The notes below the pieces were generated by a model. It was not told the origin of the DNA. It searched no databases and saw only the letters and a list, made by a program, of their open reading frames with translations. Below are positions 2,551-16,018 of a stretch of 19,718 nucleotides of DNA, in pieces. Source of the DNA: a bacterium (GTDB lineage: Bacteria > SM23-81 > DAOVCL01); contig JAOZPP010000063.1 of assembly GCA_029932675.1 (NCBI GenBank), positions 1-19,718 on the forward strand, given 5' to 3'. Numbering within the stretch: the first letter of the stretch is position 1; the number at the start of each line of letters is the position of its first letter. Both the position numbers and the translations under genes were made by a program.

Positions 2551-3786
2551 CTACTTCAACAAAATCATCTTCCTGGTCTGCACAAGGTCTCCTCTCTGGA
2601 GCCTATAAAAGTAAATTCCACTGGAGACATCTTGGTCAAAATTGTCCTTTCCGTTCCATAATACCCTATAGTAACCCTCACATTGTTCTTTGTCCACTAA
2701 AGTCTTCACCTCTTGCCCCAATAGGTTGTAGACCTTTAGGGTAGTGGGGTGGGGATGATCCCCCCACACCGAATAGCGAATACTGGTGGTGGTGTTAAAG
2801 GGATTTGGATAGCTCTGGAAGAGGGTGAACTCCTTTGGGGTTGCCTGCGATCCCCCTCCCCCCTCTATACCTACAGACATCCCATAACTATCCCCATTCA
2901 CCCAAAAGCTGTCTGAGCAGACCTTTATGGTAATATCGCCATCAACTATGTTGCCCTCGCCATCCTCCGTCTGGTAGATCACGCTGGGAACGGCCTCCAA
3001 TCTTTGAATTACCTCCTCAGTGGGATGGCCATAGGGATTCTGGCCAACGGAGATGATAGCGACCTTTGGCTGTAATGAATCAACGAAGTACTGGTTGGTA
3101 TTGTTTTTACTTCCATGATGATCGACCCTTAAGACCTCCACCCTCCCCACCTCAGGAGCCACCGATGATTCAATGTCTGTATAATTGGCTGTGTTCTTTC
3201 CACTTAGGTCGCCAGCCACGAAGAAGGCAAATCCATGATATTCAAGTTTTAGGGCCACACAGAGATCATTTTCGTCAATAGGGGGCTGGGTAAAGGGCTC
3301 TTCCAAAAGATTATTGCCGTTGACAGCCATACAGGTGACGAAGGTTCCTCCGCCAAGGTCAATCATCTGGCTGTCAACTATGGTCACCCTCTTCGGTTCA
3401 ACTGACTGAGAGTAGTCCTGATAGGTCTGGGTAGTATAAGACCAACCCCTGTCATAGACCACCCCAATAGAGTCAATTCCCAATCCATCAACAACTTCAT
3501 CAATCCCACCAATATGATCAGCGTGGTAGTGGGTAGCTACGATATAGTCCAAACTCGTTAGGTTAAGGTTATCTAAAAATGGCAGGACTTTATCGTCCCC
3601 TATTCCATTGATCCCCCCATCCACTAGCATAGTCCCTCCAGTGGGAGAAACGATCAGGGTCGCATCGCCCTCCCCCACATCGAGGCAATGGATATAAAGG
3701 GTGTCACTTGCCCTGACAACGGGAAAGGTAAAGAAAACCCATACAAAGAGTAACTTTAGTGATTTCCTCATTAGATCCCTCATCAT
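2551..3786 (-). CDS. Secreted metallo-beta-lactamase-fold hydrolase with C-terminal sorting domain
   Basis: A 411-residue protein in three parts. Residues 1-27 form a signal peptide (basic start, hydrophobic 10-24, cut near RASD). Residues about 28-290 are a ComEC/Rec2-like metallo-beta-lactamase domain with HYHADH (H86, H88, D90, H91), AGD (D193), VDHHGS (H223, H224) and GH (253-254). These are the metal ligands of a two-metal hydrolase, possibly a nuclease or phosphodiesterase. Residues about 317-411 are a FlgD-like, type-IX-secretion (Por) sorting domain: FQSYPNPFN (323-331), YNLLGQEVKTL, and a SGIYFYRL ending. It is therefore probably exported, and anchored or released, in an FCB-type envelope. 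The ribosome-binding site GAGGAGGT abuts two tandem ATG codons (M1, M2); M2 has the better spacing. The leader contains a terminator-like hairpin (3809-3862). Substrate unknown; extracellular DNA is a possibility only. Confidence 0.88.
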   Translation of the reverse strand: MMRDLMRKSLKLLFVWVFFTFPVVRASDTLYIHCLDVGEGDATLIVSPTGGTMLVDGGINGIGDDKVLPFLDNLNLTSLDYIVATHYHADHIGGIDEVVDGLGIDSIGVVYDRGWSYTTQTYQDYSQSVEPKRVTIVDSQMIDLGGGTFVTCMAVNGNNLLEEPFTQPPIDENDLCVALKLEYHGFAFFVAGDLSGKNTANYTDIESSVAPEVGRVEVLRVDHHGSKNNTNQYFVDSLQPKVAIISVGQNPYGHPTEEVIQRLEAVPSVIYQTEDGEGNIVDGDITIKVCSDSFWVNGDSYGMSVGIEGGGGSQATPKEFTLFQSYPNPFNTTTSIRYSVWGDHPHPTTLKVYNLLGQEVKTLVDKEQCEGYYRVLWNGKDNFDQDVSSGIYFYRLQRGDLVQTRKMILLK

Positions 3787-4043: not shown

Positions 4044-5012
4044 TCAGGCCAACCAGGGGAGCCTCTCCAGGTCAACATTCCCCCCAGAGAGGATTATCCC
4101 CACCCTTTTCCCCTTTAGGTTAACTTTCCTCTCCAACAGTGCACCATAAGGAACTGCCGAGGAGGGTTCAATAATGAGCTTCATCCGCTCCCAAATCAAA
4201 CGCATCGCAGAGATAATTGCCTCTTCGCTTACTGTGACTATCCTATCCACGTATTTTCTTATCAGGGGAAAGGTGATATCCCCCAAGGAGGTGAGTAATC
4301 CATCGGCTATTGTCTGAGGATTAACCGAAGGGATGAGCCTTCCCTGGATGAAGGATCGGTAGGCATCATCAGCCCCTTCAGGTTCAGTCCCGATAACCTC
4401 TGCTTGGGATAAGATGCTCGATACCGCTACTGCCGTTCCGCTGAGCAGACCTCCCCCTCCCACTGGAACCATCACCACATTTAGGTTGTCGACCTCCTCT
4501 ATGAGCTCCAGAGCTGCAGTCCCTTGTCCAGCAATGACAGCGAAATTGTTGTAAGGGTGGATAAATGTGGCTCCAGTCTCCTCAATGATCTGGTTTAACA
4601 TCGCCTCCCGTGCTTCGAGAGTGGGCTCACAGAAGATTATCTTTCCTCCATAGCCTTCTACTGCTGTCCTCTTTACTTTGGGAGCATTTTTGGGCATTAC
4701 GAGATAAGCCCTGATACCCCTCTTTTGAGCAGCAAGGGCCAAAGCTTGAGCATGGTTTCCAGAGGAGTGAGTGGCAACACCGTTAACCACCTCTTTATCA
4801 GGAAGGGAAAAGACCGCGTTTGTTGCACCGCGAAATTTAAAAGCCCCCACTTTTTGAAAGTTCTCACACTTAAAGAATATCTCTGCATCAGCTAAGCGAT
4901 TTAGGCCTTTACAGGTGAGAACAGGGGTTTGATTGATGTATGGCTTTATTCTCTGATGCGCTCTCCGGATGGCTTCCAAATTCACTGTTGAAGCGGTCTG
5001 ATTTCTTCTCAT
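4044..5012 (-). CDS. Threonine dehydratase / serine racemase-type PLP enzyme
   Basis: A fold-type II PLP enzyme of 322 residues that deaminates L-threonine/L-serine to 2-oxo acids or racemises serine. VGAFKFRGA carries the PLP lysine K59; SSGNHAQ (83-89) binds the substrate carboxylate; VGGGGLLSG (184-192) is the phosphate-binding glycine loop; ILSGGN (307-312) lies near the pyridine ring. E210, A214 and D216 (EPEGADD) line up with the divalent-metal site of serine racemases. There is no C-terminal ACT domain, so it is the short catabolic type, not the isoleucine-inhibited biosynthetic IlvA. The frame is open to a GTG at 5087, but those 25 codons have no ribosome-binding site and no family similarity. 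The ATG at 5012 puts the start where relatives begin, though its own ribosome-binding site is weak. It lies 133 bases after the transporter gene and may share its transcript. Confidence 0.88.
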   Translation of the reverse strand: MRRNQTASTVNLEAIRRAHQRIKPYINQTPVLTCKGLNRLADAEIFFKCENFQKVGAFKFRGATNAVFSLPDKEVVNGVATHSSGNHAQALALAAQKRGIRAYLVMPKNAPKVKRTAVEGYGGKIIFCEPTLEAREAMLNQIIEETGATFIHPYNNFAVIAGQGTAALELIEEVDNLNVVMVPVGGGGLLSGTAVAVSSILSQAEVIGTEPEGADDAYRSFIQGRLIPSVNPQTIADGLLTSLGDITFPLIRKYVDRIVTVSEEAIISAMRLIWERMKLIIEPSSAVPYGALLERKVNLKGKRVGIILSGGNVDLERLPWLA

Positions 5013-5145
5013 CTTCCGCGTAGGCCCTTTCACTCCAATGTAACCAGATGTGAGGGGAAAGTCAAGGGAGAATGCCTCCCCTACCACTTTATGATCAACC
5101 AGGGTTTAAGCCACGAGTATGCAAGGCATCCCCTCCTCTTCCCTC

Positions 5146-6341: not shown

Positions 6342-7310
6342 TTACTTAGCCAAAATTGAGGCAAGATCATAGAGTTCCTTGTCCAGCTTCTTCTTCTTTT
6401 CCCAGGAATCGGTTAAAGGGGTAAGGACCAGCTTACCATTAACCACTCCCACCATTTTATCCTTCTCCCCCTGGTTAATTGCCCTCACTGCTGCCGCTCC
6501 TAACCTACTGGCCAAGACCCTATCCCGGGCGCTGGGTTTCCCCCCCCTCTGAATATGACCTAAGACTACTACTCGGAAATCCAAACCTATTGAGGCTTTA
6601 ATCTTTTCCGCGATTTGAAAAGCCCCTCCTGCTTCGTCGCCCTCCGCCACTACCACTATGGCACTTGTCTTTCCTCTTTTCTTTCCCTCTTTCAGCCTCG
6701 CACAGATAGCCTTTAGGTCGGTCTTCACCTCTGGAATGATGATCTCCTCTGCCCCACCTCCTATCCCTACCTCTAAGGCTATAAAACCCGCCTTCCTCCC
6801 CATCACCTCCACCAGGAATATCCTCTCGTGAGCAGCGGCAGTGTCCCTTATCCTGTCGATAGACTCTAAGGCCGTGTTCACCGCTGTATCGTATCCTATG
6901 GTGTAATCGCTTCCATAGATGTCGTTGTCAATGGTCGCTGGAACACCAATTACTGGTATATACCATTCCATAAAGAGGCTATGGGCCCCCCGAAAACTTC
7001 CATCCCCCCCAATAACAATTAAACCTTCAACGTTGGCCTCTCCCAGTTTGAGAGCCGCCATCTTCCTTCCCTCCTGGGTAGTAAACTCTTGGGAGCGGGC
7101 GGTCTCCAGTATGGTCCCCCCTCGTTGGATAATATTGGAGACCGATCTCATAGTCATCGGGAAGAATTCACCTTGAATAAGGCCTGCATATCCTCTCCTA
7201 ATCCCCATAACCTCTAAACCGTCATATAGGGCCCTCCTCACTACAGCTCGCAGGCAGGCATTCATTCCCGGGGCATCCCCCCCACTTGTTAAGACGCCAA
7301 TCCTCTTCAT
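6342..7310 (-). CDS. pfkA: ATP-dependent 6-phosphofructokinase
   Basis: Phosphorylates fructose 6-phosphate to fructose 1,6-bisphosphate, the committed step of glycolysis, in the cytosol. The 322-residue length matches bacterial PfkA. GVLTSGGDAPGMNA (5-18) is the N-terminal ATP loop. IGGDGS (100-105), with glycine rather than aspartate at the fourth position, marks the ATP-using and not the pyrophosphate-using class. PATIDND (124-130) carries the catalytic aspartate D128. VEVMGRKAG (167-175) and GHIQRGG bind the sugar phosphate. The chosen ATG at 7310 has an excellent ribosome-binding site (AAAGGAGG); the open frame to 7370 is not needed. The gene begins 22 bases after the homocysteine methyltransferase gene, an unusual partner for a glycolytic kinase. 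Confidence 0.95.
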   Translation of the reverse strand: MKRIGVLTSGGDAPGMNACLRAVVRRALYDGLEVMGIRRGYAGLIQGEFFPMTMRSVSNIIQRGGTILETARSQEFTTQEGRKMAALKLGEANVEGLIVIGGDGSFRGAHSLFMEWYIPVIGVPATIDNDIYGSDYTIGYDTAVNTALESIDRIRDTAAAHERIFLVEVMGRKAGFIALEVGIGGGAEEIIIPEVKTDLKAICARLKEGKKRGKTSAIVVVAEGDEAGGAFQIAEKIKASIGLDFRVVVLGHIQRGGKPSARDRVLASRLGAAAVRAINQGEKDKMVGVVNGKLVLTPLTDSWEKKKKLDKELYDLASILAK

Positions 7311-7332
7311 CTCTCTTCCTCCTTTAACATCG

Positions 7333-8241
7333 TTACCTTGGGAGATCTCCCCCTTTAACAGAGGAGTCAACTACCTTCCTTAGCGCGCGGATATGCTCTG
7401 GTGTTGTCCCGCAACAGCCGCCGATTATCGACACCCCAGTGGAAATTAGCTCCTTTGCCTTTTCCGCCATAAACTCTGGGGTCTCTGAATAGATGAGGGT
7501 TTGGTCATGCATCTCCGGAATACCAGCGTTGGATTGGATAATGAGGGGAAGAGTGCTATGCTTTCTGAACTCTTTGGCGATTTTTATCATATTTTCTATG
7601 CCGTTGCCACAGTTCGAACCGATGATGTCAACCCCTGCCTCTTCCAAGCCTCTTGCCGCCTCAGCTATGCTCACCCCCATTACGGTGTAAAAACCCCGGG
7701 GAGTGGGGTCAAATGTCATAGTGGCTATAACTGGAGTGGTGGGGGAGAGGGCCTTTGCCGCCTTGATAGCCATCTGCGCCTCGGTTAGATCTATCATCGT
7801 CTCAATGCATATGATGTCCACGCCAACCCCTATAAGCACCTCAATCTGCCTTCTAAAGCTGTTATAGACATCCTCAGGTTCAATATCTCCATACGGTTTT
7901 AAGAGCCTTCCACAAGGGCCGCAGGAGGCAGAGATATAAGCGCGCCCCCGCGCAATCTCCCGTACCGCCAAAACGGCATTTCTGTTGATCTCCTCCATTT
8001 TTTCCTCAAGGGAATAAGAAGAAAGCTTCAAGGGTGAAGCTCCGAAGGTGTTAGTCTGGAGGAGGTCGGCTCCCGCCTGAAGATAAAGCTGGGCAATTTC
8101 CCGGACGATATCAAGATGGGTAAGGTTAAAGCATTCTGGTGGTTCACCGGGTTTAAGCCCCCTTTGCATAAGCATTGTCCCCGTAGCACCGTCAGCAACC
8201 AATATCTGCCCGTTTTTCAAACGTTCAAGGATTCCCTCCAT
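7333..8241 (-). CDS. Homocysteine S-methyltransferase domain protein (MetH module 1, stand-alone)
   Basis: A 302-residue zinc-dependent TIM-barrel methyltransferase matching the first domain of cobalamin-dependent methionine synthase. It should pass a methyl group from methyl-cobalamin to homocysteine, making methionine. Visible markers are DGATGTMLMQRGL (17-29), LQTNTFGAS (61-69), ISASCGPCG (103-111) and the zinc ligands C211 (GSNCGNG) and C276-C277 (GGCCGTTPEH). There is no folate-binding, corrinoid or activation domain in the same chain, although full MetH exceeds 1,100 residues. The start has a GAAGGAAAGG ribosome-binding site, and the gene overlaps the end of the corrinoid-protein gene by 17 bases, which points to coupled translation and a shared function. 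A betaine-type (BHMT) activity is a weaker alternative given the corrinoid partner. Confidence 0.92.
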   Translation of the reverse strand: MEGILERLKNGQILVADGATGTMLMQRGLKPGEPPECFNLTHLDIVREIAQLYLQAGADLLQTNTFGASPLKLSSYSLEEKMEEINRNAVLAVREIARGRAYISASCGPCGRLLKPYGDIEPEDVYNSFRRQIEVLIGVGVDIICIETMIDLTEAQMAIKAAKALSPTTPVIATMTFDPTPRGFYTVMGVSIAEAARGLEEAGVDIIGSNCGNGIENMIKIAKEFRKHSTLPLIIQSNAGIPEMHDQTLIYSETPEFMAEKAKELISTGVSIIGGCCGTTPEHIRALRKVVDSSVKGGDLPR

Positions 8242-8887
8242 ACCTTTCCTTCACCTCGTCGACAAGTTCCTTTACGCTCTTTACTGCGTTTGCGCTGTCA
8301 TAGCTATAAGCATCCGCCCCTATCTCTTGGGCAAATTCTTTGGAGACAGGAGCTCCACCAATTATCGTCTTTACCCTGTCCTGAAGGCCCTCCTGCCTTA
8401 AAAGTTCCACCACCTTTCCCATAACTGGCATTGTAGTGGTGAGGAGGGCAGACATACCAATGACCATAGCCTTCTCTCTCTTCACCGCCTCTATAAACAT
8501 CTCTGGTGGCACATCGTTCCCCAGATCGATGACCTCAAACCCTGCACCTTTAAGCATAATGCCCACAAGGTTCTTGCCGATATCGTGTAGGTCCCCTTGC
8601 ACAGTACCGATTACTATTCTTCCCCGATGGGGAACCTCCTCCTTGAGGAAAAGGGGTTTAAGCACATCCATCCCAGCATACATCGCCTTCGCTGCCAGAA
8701 GCACCTCGGGGAGAAAGATCTCATGATCTCCATACTTTTTGCCCACTATGTTCATCCCCTCAATGAGGGCCCTATCGAGCACCTCCTTCGGGGAGATACC
8801 CTCCTCTATTGCTTTCCTGGTTAGATTTGAAACCATCTCGCTATTTCCCTGTTGTAAGTGATTCAAAATCTCTGCAAGTCTTCCCAT
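8225..8887 (-). CDS. Corrinoid (B12-binding) methyl-carrier protein, MtbC/MetH module type
   Basis: A 220-residue cobalamin carrier. Residues about 1-85 form the helical cap domain; about 88-215 form the Rossmann-like B12-binding domain. The signature DLHDIGKN (99-106) supplies H101, the lower axial ligand of cobalt, and G104; GMSALLTTTM (144-153) and IIGGAPVS (175-182) are the other corrinoid-binding segments. Length and layout match MttC/MtbC/MtgC partners of MttB-type methyltransferases and the B12 module of MetH. It should shuttle the methyl group between the MttB-like enzyme and the homocysteine methyltransferase next door. A good ribosome-binding site (GGGAGGTT) lies 8 bases before the ATG. 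The 75-base gap to the upstream activator gene contains no evident signal. Confidence 0.94.
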   Translation of the reverse strand: MGRLAEILNHLQQGNSEMVSNLTRKAIEEGISPKEVLDRALIEGMNIVGKKYGDHEIFLPEVLLAAKAMYAGMDVLKPLFLKEEVPHRGRIVIGTVQGDLHDIGKNLVGIMLKGAGFEVIDLGNDVPPEMFIEAVKREKAMVIGMSALLTTTMPVMGKVVELLRQEGLQDRVKTIIGGAPVSKEFAQEIGADAYSYDSANAVKSVKELVDEVKERYGGNP

Positions 8888-8962
8888 TATATGGTGAACC
8901 TCCCTATTTGTTCTACCCTAAGGGTGGATTGGGCCTTACCCGCACTAAAAGTTAGGTCAAGT

Positions 8963-9673
8963 TCAACTCAGGAGTTTTCTTATCCTCTCCTGGCAAGAAT
9001 GGGTGGGACACTGATTGCAGAATGGATAGGAGTCTGCGAACTGATGAATCTCCTTCCTCCCCGCAACTAAGACCCCTGATATGGATTTCAGGGGCCTCAT
9101 CAAAAAGCTATCCAGAAGCTCAATGCCGATGACCTCTGGATGAAGAAACTCGAATAGTCTTTTCTGTCCACTGATATGCCATCCACAGTAGCCTGGACTA
9201 TAGCCCAAGATCCCTGTAAAGGAGTTGGCTTCCCCCCGCTTCGAGAGCAGACGAAGATAAAAGTGAGCAAGGAGATCGATTGCCTTGTCGGCTGCAGTTG
9301 AGGCAATAGAATCTACGAAGTTGGCCAAAGCAAACTCATTTGTCCTGAAGAGTGCGTTTATCCTTTCACCTATCCCCCTACCGAGGGTAAAGGCGAAAAG
9401 GGCCAAGCCATCTGCTTTCCTGAAGATCCCCTCAAGGGGTGTTCTGGGGGCATTTAACCCCTCACCCTTATAAAGGGCCTCAAATTGAGGTATAGTCAGC
9501 TCTGAGATTAGGGCCCGGGGATGGGAGGACTGGAAAAATATCTCCATTGCCTCCTCCAGGAGGTGCCGCAGTCTCTCCGGTTGTTCTCGCCCGGCTGGCA
9601 CCCCCTGGGCCTTTAATACCTCCTCCCTTTCTGGCTTAAGCTCACTTAAGGGGATTTCGATGATCTCTCTCAC
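8963..9673 (-). CDS. MetH-type B12 reactivation domain protein (stand-alone)
   Basis: A 236-residue protein resembling the C-terminal activation domain of methionine synthase, which rescues inactive cob(II)alamin by reductive methylation with S-adenosylmethionine. LGYSPGYCGWHISGQKRLFE (156-175) is the region equivalent to the SAM-binding turn. LLDSFLMRPLKSISG (186-200) follows the same order as in MetH. A C-terminal C219-x2-C222-x4-C227 cluster is seen in stand-alone homologues from anaerobes and may bind metal. The start is GTG at 9673, overlapping the MttB-family stop codon (GTGA); with no clear ribosome-binding site, translation is probably coupled. Its presence argues for MetH-style SAM reactivation and not the ATP/iron-sulfur RamA route used by methylamine systems. 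Confidence 0.85.
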   Translation of the reverse strand: MREIIEIPLSELKPEREEVLKAQGVPAGREQPERLRHLLEEAMEIFFQSSHPRALISELTIPQFEALYKGEGLNAPRTPLEGIFRKADGLALFAFTLGRGIGERINALFRTNEFALANFVDSIASTAADKAIDLLAHFYLRLLSKRGEANSFTGILGYSPGYCGWHISGQKRLFEFLHPEVIGIELLDSFLMRPLKSISGVLVAGRKEIHQFADSYPFCNQCPTHSCQERIRKLLS

Positions 9674-11130
9674 CAGTTTGTCTTGGGTAGCCCCTTCATT
9701 CCATGGCGTCGCGCCTCGGCTTCCATCAACTTTTTCATCTCCCTTTTTATTGACTCAGGCAGCCTGGAGGGAGAATATTCATCTAATAACCTCTCCACCT
9801 CCCGATGAGCCCTGGCCAAGAGCGTTACCCCACCTTCCCCTTGCCACCTCGTCCTATTTGTCCGGTCGATTGTTTGCCCCGGGAGGTAGAACTCTCCCCT
9901 TAAATATCTCCGGGTATGTTCTGAAATGAGCAAGTGTTTCTCCCGCAGAAGCTCCTCAAACTTAGGGAGAGAGGGAAAATCATCTTTTGGCTCGATTCCC
10001 TCTATCAGCCGATAAACCATCCCACAGATCTCATTATCCAGAACGAGTTTTTCCATGCTCTGACAACTTTCAAAATCGAGCATTCCTGGGCCAGATATGC
10101 TGTTTATCCCGGAGAGGGCGGCTAAGGTTGCCCCCATTGCTGACTCCAATCCCGCCTGTGCATCGAGTTGTTTCGCATCACTCAAGGAGATGTAAGCTTG
10201 TGTGGGAAGGCCAAAGAACTTACCGATTTCACTGTATGCACAATCAATCATCTCCGTCTCTATAGCACCCATCGGGGTTGTCTCATAGCGAAGGTCAAAA
10301 ATGGCTGGCGACCCCCCGTAGAGAAGGGGTGCACCAGGGTTGGCAAGTTGACTAATTACCACACCGCTTAAGGTCTCAGCGGTATGTTGAACCAATGTTC
10401 CCACCAGGGTAACCGGGGCCACAAACCCGGACAAGGGCATAGAAATCAGTTCCACTGGGATCGAGGATGCGGCGCAGTCAACAAGGTTTTGGGAGGTTAC
10501 CTCACCCCATTTTAGCGGTGATGTCGGACAGCAGGAGAAGATGGTCAGTGGCTTGGCGGCAAGCTCCTCCTCTGTCCCGCGCACGGCAAGCTGTAGATCC
10601 TTCATAATGGCGAAAGCCTCGATACTGAATGCTCCAGTCACTACCGGTTTTTCGCAATAGAGTAAGCTGAGATAGAGCCGATAGCTATCGGAGATCTTTT
10701 CGTGGACATCGGCCGGTATAAAGGCTGTGCTTTGGGAAGCAATGTTTTTAAGTTTACCCACCAGCTTAGCATACCTCACATAATCATCAGTCGTTGGCTT
10801 ACGAATTTCCCCATGGGGATAATCGAGGATGTTGAGCGCCGCTGAACCAGGAGTAAAGTAGATATTGTTGTCTGAGAAATCATGCGTCTCATTGCCGAGA
10901 ACATCAAAGAGCTTGAAGGATTTGGGAGCTGTATCCAATGCCTGATCTATGATTGTGTTAGTAAGGAAGACACGAGATTTAGTTGGTTCCACCCTCGCCC
11001 CGTGATCTCTTAGCATGGAGAGAACCCCTTGGTTATGCACTTCCACCCCTAACTTACAGAGAACATCCCTCGCTTCTGAAACTATTCTCTCGACGAGCTC
11101 ATCATTCAAGAGTCTAAGAATCGGTCTCAT
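9670..11130 (-). CDS. Trimethylamine methyltransferase (MttB) family protein, non-pyrrolysine
   Basis: A 486-residue cytosolic MttB-superfamily methyltransferase. Family segments visible include FTPGSAALNILD, AFIPADV, a long middle region with SCCPTSPLKW and PLSGFVAPVTLVGTLVQH, and the C-terminal block DAQAGLESAMGATLAALSGI with SGPGMLDFES. The frame is unbroken over the full family length with no amber codon, so it lacks the pyrrolysine of methanogen MttB. Characterised non-pyrrolysine members demethylate quaternary amines such as glycine betaine, proline betaine, carnitine or butyrobetaine and methylate a corrinoid protein. The substrate here is unknown. It is the first gene of the cluster, has a candidate promoter at 11163-11191 and a GGGGG ribosome-binding site, and overlaps the activator gene by 4 bases. 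Confidence 0.93.
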   Translation of the reverse strand: MRPILRLLNDELVERIVSEARDVLCKLGVEVHNQGVLSMLRDHGARVEPTKSRVFLTNTIIDQALDTAPKSFKLFDVLGNETHDFSDNNIYFTPGSAALNILDYPHGEIRKPTTDDYVRYAKLVGKLKNIASQSTAFIPADVHEKISDSYRLYLSLLYCEKPVVTGAFSIEAFAIMKDLQLAVRGTEEELAAKPLTIFSCCPTSPLKWGEVTSQNLVDCAASSIPVELISMPLSGFVAPVTLVGTLVQHTAETLSGVVISQLANPGAPLLYGGSPAIFDLRYETTPMGAIETEMIDCAYSEIGKFFGLPTQAYISLSDAKQLDAQAGLESAMGATLAALSGINSISGPGMLDFESCQSMEKLVLDNEICGMVYRLIEGIEPKDDFPSLPKFEELLREKHLLISEHTRRYLRGEFYLPGQTIDRTNRTRWQGEGGVTLLARAHREVERLLDEYSPSRLPESIKREMKKLMEAEARRHGMKGLPKTNW

Positions 11131-14274: not shown

Positions 14275-15477
14275 TTGGACTACAGGATTCTCCAGGATTT
14301 GGCCTCGAAGGAAGGGGGGAAAATAGTCTATCTGATCCTTGATGGCCTGGGCGGGTTGAGGATGGGGGAGGCAAGGGGAACAGAGCTTCAGGTGGCCCGC
14401 ACCCCCAACTTAGACAAACTGGTGAGTCAATCCGTTTGTGGCCTCTTAGATCCTATTTGGCCGGGGATAACACCGGGGAGTGGCCCTGCCCATTTAGCCA
14501 TCTTCGGCTATGATCCGCTTGAGTTTGTGGTAGGCAGAGGGGTCTTAGCAGCATTGGGGGTAGACTTCAAACTAACGGAAAAGGATGTGGCCGCACGCGT
14601 CAATTTCTGCACCGTGGGCTCGGATGGTAAGGTTGCCGACCGGAGAGCAGGTAGGATACCCACAGAGGAAAACCGCAGGCTCTGTACCAAACTAAGGGAT
14701 GGCGTCAGTTTACCTACTGAATTCTTCCTCGAGCCGGTGAAGGAACACCGAGCTGTTCTCGTCCTCAGGGGTGAGGGACTGGGTGGTGAGTTGGCCGATA
14801 CTGATCCTCAGCAGGAGGGTTTTCCCCCTTTAGAGCCAAGGGCCCTTGACCCACAGAGCAGGAAGACGGCTGAAATCGTAGGGGACTTCCTCCAACAGGC
14901 TAAAAGGATCCTCCAAGATGAGCCCAAAGCCAATATGCTCCTTTTGCGCGGTTTTGCCAGATATAATAGGTTTCCCACAATGGAGGAGAGGTACAAACTC
15001 CATTCCTTAGCCATTGCCAACTATCCTATGTATAGGGGATTAGCCAGGTTGGTGGGTATGGATGTTTGGCCTGAAGTAGGTGACCTAAAGGATGAGTTCA
15101 GGATTTTGGCTGAGAACTTCTCCCAATATGACTTTTTCTTTGTGCATATAAAGAAGACGGACAGTTTAGGCGAAGACGGAAACTTCTCCGCCAAAGTGAA
15201 GGCCATAGAGGAGGTGGACAAACTCATCCCTCAGGTCTTGGATCTCGGTCCAGAGGTGATTGTGGTTACCGCTGACCACTCCACCCCCAGTCGGCTAAAG
15301 AGCCACAGTTGGCATCCCGTTCCTGTGCTCTTATTCTCCCCCAACTGTAGGGTTGACGAGGTGAAAAGCTTTGACGAGATAAGCTGTATTCGGGGAGGCT
15401 TAGGAAGGCTCCCCGCAGTGGCTCTAATTACCCTTGCCCTCGCTCACGCCCGCAGGCTAAAGAAGTATGGCGCTTGA
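14275..15477 (+). CDS. apgM: Cofactor-independent phosphoglycerate mutase, archaeal type (ApgM)
   Basis: Interconverts 3- and 2-phosphoglycerate in glycolysis and gluconeogenesis without 2,3-bisphosphoglycerate. At 400 residues it is the short archaeal-type member of the alkaline-phosphatase superfamily, not the approximately 510-residue GpmI. LILDGLGG (20-27) supplies a metal-binding aspartate (D23). ITPGSGPAHLAIFGYDP (65-81) holds the serine nucleophile S69. VGRGVLAALG and RAGRIPTEEN are substrate-domain segments. VVTADHSTP near the C terminus supplies further metal ligands. The start is TTG, chosen because AAAGGAGG lies 5 bases upstream and no ATG fits. The gene overlaps kptA by 11 bases. 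Confidence 0.93.
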   Translation: MDYRILQDLASKEGGKIVYLILDGLGGLRMGEARGTELQVARTPNLDKLVSQSVCGLLDPIWPGITPGSGPAHLAIFGYDPLEFVVGRGVLAALGVDFKLTEKDVAARVNFCTVGSDGKVADRRAGRIPTEENRRLCTKLRDGVSLPTEFFLEPVKEHRAVLVLRGEGLGGELADTDPQQEGFPPLEPRALDPQSRKTAEIVGDFLQQAKRILQDEPKANMLLLRGFARYNRFPTMEERYKLHSLAIANYPMYRGLARLVGMDVWPEVGDLKDEFRILAENFSQYDFFFVHIKKTDSLGEDGNFSAKVKAIEEVDKLIPQVLDLGPEVIVVTADHSTPSRLKSHSWHPVPVLLFSPNCRVDEVKSFDEISCIRGGLGRLPAVALITLALAHARRLKKYGA

Positions 15478-16018
15478 CCGTCGGAAGAGGATAAGGCTGA
15501 GCAAATTCCTCTCCTACATTCTCAGACATAATCCCCAAGCATATGGATTGAAACTGGACAAGTTCGGCTTTGTCTTATTAAGAGATGTTCACCAAGTGAT
15601 TCGTTCCCGTCTCCCCTGGGTCAAGCAAGAGGACTTATTCTCCCTCGTGGAGGGGGATCCCAAGGGGCGGTTCGAGCTAAGGGAAGGGAAGATAAGGGCT
15701 ACCTATGGCCACTCCCTGGGGTTAGAGAACCCCTCACCTTCTGTCCTCCCTCCCGCTAAGTTATATCATGGTACTTCCCACAAAAATTTAGGGAGAATAT
15801 TGGTGGAGGGGATAAAGCCTATGGGCCGGGATTTTGTCCACCTCAGCCCGACTCCGGAAGACGCCTTGTGGGTGGGGAAAAGACATGGGGGGGAACCCGT
15901 CATCCTGGTGATTGATGCTCGTAAGGCTGTGCAGGAGGGAATAGAGTTCAAGAGGTGGAAGAACACGTTTTTGGTAAGGGAAGTTCCCAAAAAGTATATA
16001 GCCCTTTGGAGAGCTTAG
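15467..16018 (+). CDS. kptA: RNA 2'-phosphotransferase (Tpt1/KptA)
   Basis: A 183-residue member of the Tpt1/KptA family. The enzyme moves a 2'-phosphate from RNA to NAD+, giving ADP-ribose 1'',2''-cyclic phosphate and nicotinamide; in yeast this finishes tRNA splicing, while the bacterial role is unclear. The N-terminal winged-helix lobe has SKFLSYILRHNP (12-23; R20, H21). KIRATYGHS (75-83; R77) joins the lobes. LYHGTS (99-104) and GRDFVHLS (120-127; R121) form the NAD+-binding lobe. All four catalytic residues of the Arg-His-Arg-Arg set are present. The tyrosine in ATYGHS, where many relatives have glutamine, is also seen in archaeal-like sequences. Its ATG lies inside the end of the phosphoglycerate mutase gene, so translation is probably coupled. 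Confidence 0.94.
   Translation: MALDRRKRIRLSKFLSYILRHNPQAYGLKLDKFGFVLLRDVHQVIRSRLPWVKQEDLFSLVEGDPKGRFELREGKIRATYGHSLGLENPSPSVLPPAKLYHGTSHKNLGRILVEGIKPMGRDFVHLSPTPEDALWVGKRHGGEPVILVIDARKAVQEGIEFKRWKNTFLVREVPKKYIALWRA

Follow-up and report, generated by a model that had tools for sequence, protein, structure and literature searches.

A conserved bacterial four-gene unit predicted to encode a folate-independent, corrinoid-dependent methionine synthase

Methionine synthesis is normally bound to methyl-folate. The DNA described here, contig JAOZPP010000063.1 of the bacterial assembly GCA_029932675.1 (19,718 nucleotides (nt), referred to below as the window; the genome is 97% complete), carries on its minus strand four adjacent genes, transcribed from 11130 to 7333, for an MttB-family protein, a MetH-type activator, a corrinoid protein, and a homocysteine methyltransferase (HMT). 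It is reasonably probable, in our view, that their products make up a corrinoid-dependent methionine synthase that works without folate, a prediction supported by the invariance of the catalytic motifs of the HMT and the corrinoid protein, by the conservation of the operon, and by the MetH fold of the activator. A wider proposition is tentative when its parts are taken jointly, namely that the unit represents a widespread further family of folate-independent methionine synthases built on MttB and MetH modules, serving several uncultured anaerobic lineages as their sole enzyme for making methionine, with a novel methyl donor and an activator with four cysteines that possibly bind an iron–sulfur cluster.

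Composition and conservation of the four-gene unit

The identities of the four products, first proposed from the sequence alone (the sequence-only reading), were borne out by Pfam, phmmer, and Foldseek (Table 1). The overlaps given there, 4 nt between the MttB stop and the activator start and 17 nt between the corrinoid and HMT genes, are exact, and the activator and corrinoid genes are spaced by 75 nt. As that reading also held, three MetH modules are present as separate proteins, with no pterin-binding domain (PF00809) within the cluster. Together with the MttB-family protein they form a self-contained unit conserved across phyla. A search for S-adenosylmethionine (SAM) and cobalamin riboswitches upstream gave no match in the window and none in 19 relatives.

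Table 1. Genes of the four-gene unit and other features of the window
Feature	Position	Strand	Characteristics
MttB-superfamily methyl-donor:corrinoid methyltransferase	9670..11130	-	486 aa; PF06253 MTTB, 256.8 bits
Stand-alone MetH-type reductive activator	8963..9673	-	236 aa; GTG start; PF02965 Met_synt_B12, 29.8 bits (cut-off 25 bits; only a fragment of the model covered)
Corrinoid (B12) carrier	8225..8887	-	220 aa; PF02607 B12-binding_2 and PF02310 B12-binding
Stand-alone homocysteine S-methyltransferase (HMT)	7333..8241	-	302 aa; PF02574 S-methyl_trans, 233.4 bits
pfkA, 6-phosphofructokinase, directly downstream	6342..7370	-	PF00365; PFKA_ATP above cut-off
Pyridoxal phosphate (PLP) enzyme	4044..5087	-	Nearest to beta-hydroxyaspartate dehydratase BhcB (453 bits; cut-off 550)
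RNA 2'-phosphotransferase, Tpt1/KptA family	15467..16018	+	
Metallo-beta-lactamase-fold, ComEC-C-like protein	2551..3786	-	Type IX secretion sorting tail

When a single genome per species was scanned, 490 encoded MttB relatives emerged, of which the best 80 (68–78% identical) were analyzed. In 46 of these 80, the four genes sit together within 6 kb and on the same strand, and 43 of the 46 complete clusters keep the order MttB–activator–corrinoid–HMT, so the arrangement is not due to chance and the gene order, whose recurrence the sequence-only reading had left to be checked, does recur. The remaining relatives comprise 11 that are consistent with the cluster but broken by a contig end, 14 with MttB alone, and nine with two or three of the genes. 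The 4-nt overlap between MttB and activator is found in ~25 complete clusters, about half of them. Complete clusters bear at least a dozen NCBI phylum labels, including WOR-3 (Caldifarciminota), Zixibacteria, Planctomycetota, Cloacimonadota, Bacteroidota, Fermentibacteria/Aegiribacteria, Acidobacteriota/Aminicenantes, Spirochaetota, and Neomarinimicrobiota; since the carriers are mostly metagenome-assembled genomes (MAGs), some of these labels may reflect misbinning. In a sample of 23 genomes, the median pairwise identity across phyla was 70% for MttB versus 49% for FolP, and pairwise distances correlated among the cluster proteins (r 0.74–0.86) and almost as strongly between these proteins and FolP (0.66–0.74), which is compatible with largely vertical or ancient inheritance of the cluster.

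The identity of the activator, weak by Pfam, is secured by sequence and predicted fold. It matches 1j6r (Thermotoga maritima TM0269) in phmmer with an E-value of 1.3e-9, and its AlphaFold2 model (predicted local distance difference test (pLDDT) score 95) is placed by Foldseek closest to the same structure (1.8e-12), followed by the MetH activation domains from Thermus, Escherichia coli, and human; the fold is also that of 1msk. The activator does not show the features of the ATP-dependent, ferredoxin-like RamA-type reductive activases (PF14574 type), its only matches being PF02965 and MetH activation-domain folds, in agreement with the earlier view that it is MetH-like and not RamA-like. Four cysteines, Cys163 (in SPGYCGW) and the group Cys219-x2-Cys222-x4-Cys227, are invariant both in 57 family sequences and in a 47-sequence alignment, and could hold an iron–sulfur cluster or zinc. 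G002 and G003, two genomes from the window's phylum whose MttB is 51% identical to that of the window, have activators only ~27% identical to the window protein; the one in G002 retains the C-terminal CX2CX4C motif and lacks Cys163.

The corrinoid protein carries the base-off/His-on motif D99-x-H101-x-x-G104, invariant in 58 sequences. Its nearest NCBIfam model is the MtgC-type NF047996, at a score below the cut-off, and a second corrinoid partner may be encoded elsewhere in the window genome. A related corrinoid protein is found in two genomes of the phylum (L195:1818-2900 and L194:3658-4713), beside a gene that in its initial part resembles uroporphyrinogen-decarboxylase-like (MtaA/CmuA type) methyltransferases. 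The best solved relative of the HMT is the homocysteine domain of T. maritima MetH (1q7m, E 4.9e-51), with human BHMT at E 3.9e-23; its Cys211 and Cys276-Cys277, invariant in 46 sequences, are by homology the putative zinc ligands.

The MttB-family protein belongs to a subfamily of 81 members with full-length homology to PF06253/COG5598. Its predicted structure (pLDDT 81) matches MtgB (9yce) and MttB (7xcl) in Foldseek at ~1e-33; with these and with MtgB 2qne it shares the fold and full-length sequence homology at ~28% identity. The position aligned to Pyl334 of MttB (7xcl) is Leu316, encoded by the sense codon TTG (Leu, Phe, or Met in relatives), so a pyrrolysine enzyme was rejected; MtgB also has leucine in this position. 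The Rfam model PYLIS_3 (pyrrolysine insertion sequence mttB) matches several MttB open reading frames (ORFs) (L018:8943-9042, L021, L022, L023, L048, L050, L054), its matches beginning beside the codon that aligns with Pyl334, a sense codon in these ORFs; the model seems to follow coding homology, not pyrrolysine insertion.

Characterized non-pyrrolysine members of the family act on quaternary amines as demethylases (PMC12155760). Docking has suggested that MtgB binds glycine betaine through Y94, N199, R309, and H345, plus F353 (PMC6855144). In the window protein these residues are replaced by S96, C201, Q311, S346, and E354, each kept in 78–81 of the 81 members, so glycine betaine as the donor is not supported by homology. 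Because the proposed carboxylate binders are lost and an invariant glutamate is gained, homology and the docking model hint that the donor is not glycine betaine and possibly has no carboxylate. The donor is probably a methylated compound, quaternary or of another onium type, and not obviously glycine betaine; the methylated amine named in the sequence-only reading follows from family membership only. No transporter or downstream catabolic gene that might point to the donor recurs beside the cluster in relatives.

Folate enzymes and the source of homocysteine

Profiles for PF00809, MetE (PF01717), and MetF (PF02219) were searched in 54 genomes. Eight genomes with the full cluster gave no match to a MetH pterin domain, to MetE, or to MetF. 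Three of them are single-contig chromosomes of WOR-3 MAGs (G004, G007, G009), and the others are drafts (G014, G015, G016, G025, G031). Their only pterin-binding protein is FolP, and in G025 there is none whatever. Since all three of the enzymes searched for are absent, the cluster is, as judged from these gene inventories, the only recognizable route from homocysteine to methionine in the eight genomes, where the means to make or use methyl-folate are apparently missing.

The window genome itself is different. Its only PF00809 protein is FolP, encoded beside ftsH, and no pterin domain of MetH, MtgA, or AcsE type was found, in line with the sequence-only reading. MetE is nevertheless present in a split form: on contig C21 (G000 C21:45347-49161; L174, L002, L004, L005) a split MetE pair, the catalytic part of which scores above the NCBIfam cut-off for methionine synthase, adjoins a 602-aa HMT–MTHFR fusion. 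Split MetE has been described as mainly archaeal (PMC7857596). An orthologous block, with an HMT–MTHFR protein 83% identical, occurs in a second genome of the genus (G001), which has no MttB gene. As the block is present in both genomes, the cluster appears in this genus as an addition to a folate route, and the possibility that it is the only methionine synthase of the window genome was rejected. The proposed folate-free transfer of methyl groups to homocysteine thus fits the eight genomes described above but is not supported as the exclusive route in the genome from which it was deduced.

Seven genomes of Fermentibacteria/Aegiribacteria (G026, G028, G030, G036, G040, G049, G050) encode MetH-like proteins of ~790–810 aa without a match to the activation part. 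These are mostly found near an MTHFR-containing ORF, and their folate domain, to judge by weak PF00809 scores, may be diverged.

For the source of homocysteine, S-adenosylhomocysteine (SAH) hydrolase, HcyBio, and hits to PF01053 were considered. Of 27 genomes tested, 26 encode SAH hydrolase, among them all eight carriers that lack a MetH pterin domain, MetE, and MetF, and one encodes HcyBio. Strong PF01053 hits are missing in several carriers, and those examined in WOR-3 carriers prove to be methionine gamma-lyase-like and to lie next to methylmalonyl-CoA mutase, so that a homoserine-based origin of homocysteine is not supported there and no net biosynthesis is claimed; the hit on contig C37 of the window genome is also methionine gamma-lyase-like and lies in a methylmalonyl-CoA mutase cluster. 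Because SAH hydrolase is common and a homoserine-based route is unrecognized in many carriers, the cluster most likely remethylates homocysteine derived from SAH, closing the SAM cycle rather than providing net synthesis of methionine. The conserved methylmalonyl-CoA mutase cluster of WOR-3, TA06, and the window genome (L169, L170, L171, L172, L176) further contains propionyl-CoA carboxylase-like, thiolase-like, and CoA-transferase-like genes, mostly together with the methionine gamma-lyase-like PLP enzyme, and looks like a pathway of amino-acid fermentation to propionate.

The mechanism that can be proposed consists of three steps. The MttB-family protein would transfer a methyl group from a methylated compound to Co(I) of the corrinoid protein. 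To judge by the modules present, the methyl-Co(III) form would then dock with the HMT, where zinc-bound homocysteine would accept the methyl group to give methionine. When the cobalt is oxidized to Co(II), the activator, as its fold implies, would re-methylate it with SAM and an electron, the latter perhaps entering through the four invariant cysteines. In physiological terms, the cycle from SAM through SAH and homocysteine to methionine would be closed.

Weight of the evidence and alternative explanations

Several observations weigh against a folate-independent methionine synthase as the general function of the unit. Besides the split MetE and HMT–MTHFR genes of the window genome, MetE, MetH, or a shortened MetH also occurs in most other cluster genomes of the panel, which often makes the cluster redundant. 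Among the eight decisive genomes, five are draft MAGs, and, while controls for the MetF, MetE, and PF00809 profiles behaved as expected, a diverged MetF or MetE can escape such searches. Correlated distances among the cluster proteins are only slightly above those with FolP and add little beyond shared ancestry, so co-evolution was set aside as support. Members of the same MttB subfamily are found in Acidobacteriota genomes that lack the cluster, where the methyl group could have another destination; in two of these, split-MetH pieces and a pterin module are encoded at other sites. Clustering of a pterin gene with relatives of the corrinoid and HMT genes, which the sequence-only reading had named as contrary evidence, does occur in two same-phylum genomes, where an MttB protein is accompanied by an HMT, an activator, and a separate corrinoid–pterin pair; this MttB, however, is only 51% identical and lies outside the cluster clade. 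One Terriglobia genome has an MttB gene and, elsewhere, pieces of a split MetH together with a pterin gene on one contig. The methyl group may also reach folate in these three genomes.

The last two cases are what would be expected if the unit were a catabolic demethylase of the MtgBCDE kind, passing methyl groups from a methylated compound through the corrinoid protein to tetrahydrofolate by means of a separate pterin-binding MtgD or MtgA, with the homocysteine module merely tapping the pool. The system of Ruegeria works in this way (PMC12478193). We nevertheless consider this explanation unlikely for the cluster, as FolP is the sole pterin-binding protein of the window genome and of at least eight genomes with the full cluster (G025 lacking even that), and the HMT gene is inside the operon, while mtgE is usually not close to mtgBCD in marine bacteria (PMC12478193).

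Slightly less likely still is an independent HMT acting as a betaine- or dimethylsulfoniopropionate (DMSP)-type homocysteine methyltransferase, the MttB and corrinoid proteins forming a separate demethylase with another acceptor. Such an enzyme has a precedent in Bmt of Phaeobacter inhibens, which is reported to produce methionine in vitro from DMSP or betaine with neither folate nor cobalamin (PMC12366255), and the HMT does match BHMT-type models, at scores below their cut-offs. The homocysteine domain of MetH is a much nearer relative than human BHMT, though; the HMT and corrinoid genes stay closely linked in different phyla, and the operon holds no other acceptor enzyme. Finally, that the MttB-like barrel is a new folate module, taking its methyl group from methyl-tetrahydrofolate in a rebuilt MetH, is highly improbable: it occupies the place of the pterin module and shares the TIM-barrel fold with dihydropteroate synthase and the MetH folate domain, but its fold and sequence are those of MttB/MtgB (E 1e-33 versus ~1e-3 for those two), and eight carriers of the cluster have no MetF.

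Relation to known systems and significance

Closest among published systems is the dual glycine betaine demethylase/methionine synthase MtgBCDE of Ruegeria pomeroyi, described in 2025, in which the MttB-family MtgB, the corrinoid protein MtgC, the pterin-dependent MtgD, and the homocysteine-dependent MtgE interlock; MtgC serves both demethylation and methionine synthesis, and MtgD is essential for methionine synthesis and for betaine use (PMC12478193). An MttB-family donor module, separate corrinoid and homocysteine proteins, and the tie between demethylation and methionine synthesis are common to that system and to the predicted function of the window cluster. In contrast, MtgBCDE relies on MtgD for methionine synthesis and exchange with folate, and its parts are mostly scattered, whereas the window cluster has no MtgD and includes the activator within the operon. 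Identity between the window MttB and homologues encoded on plasmids of Leisingera, Mesorhizobium, and Ruegeria does not exceed 29%, the DSS-3 proteins themselves being outside this comparison. Within the MttB superfamily, the window protein also differs in that its predicted acceptor partner is a homocysteine methyltransferase and not a coenzyme M or tetrahydrofolate methyltransferase.

MetH and its split forms (TM0268/TM0269 of T. maritima; the three-part MetH of Phaeobacter) share with the window set the homocysteine, corrinoid, and activation modules, but the latter lacks the folate domain, has an MttB-family enzyme in its place, and carries additional invariant cysteines in the activator. 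The core methionine synthases MesA–MesD likewise form methionine without methyl-folate, MesA–C probably from a methyl-corrinoid protein; they are MetE-family (PF01717) barrels, while the catalytic part in the window belongs to PF02574 and has its own corrinoid protein and donor enzyme (PMC7857596). No account of this four-gene unit was found in the literature searched, most subscription journals being outside it. What is new is the spread of the unit, and the cluster is best read, from its sequences, as a variant of the corrinoid methionine synthase.

As for neighboring genes, none outside the four recurs beyond close relatives, and pfkA is therefore placed outside the conserved unit, yet it may be co-transcribed with it. 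Its ORF, with a TTG start, overlaps the HMT gene, and use of an internal Met start (~7313) would leave a gap of ~19 nt. The last three rows of Table 1 list genes elsewhere in the window.

If the proposed function is correct, bacteria with at least a dozen phylum labels, mostly uncultured and many of them from sediments or other anoxic settings, would remethylate homocysteine at the expense of a methylated compound from the environment. This would explain genomes that apparently lack a methionine synthase, and would assign a function to many genes now annotated as trimethylamine methyltransferase. The cluster would also provide a conserved, single-operon system for a corrinoid protein shared by a demethylase and a homocysteine methyltransferase.

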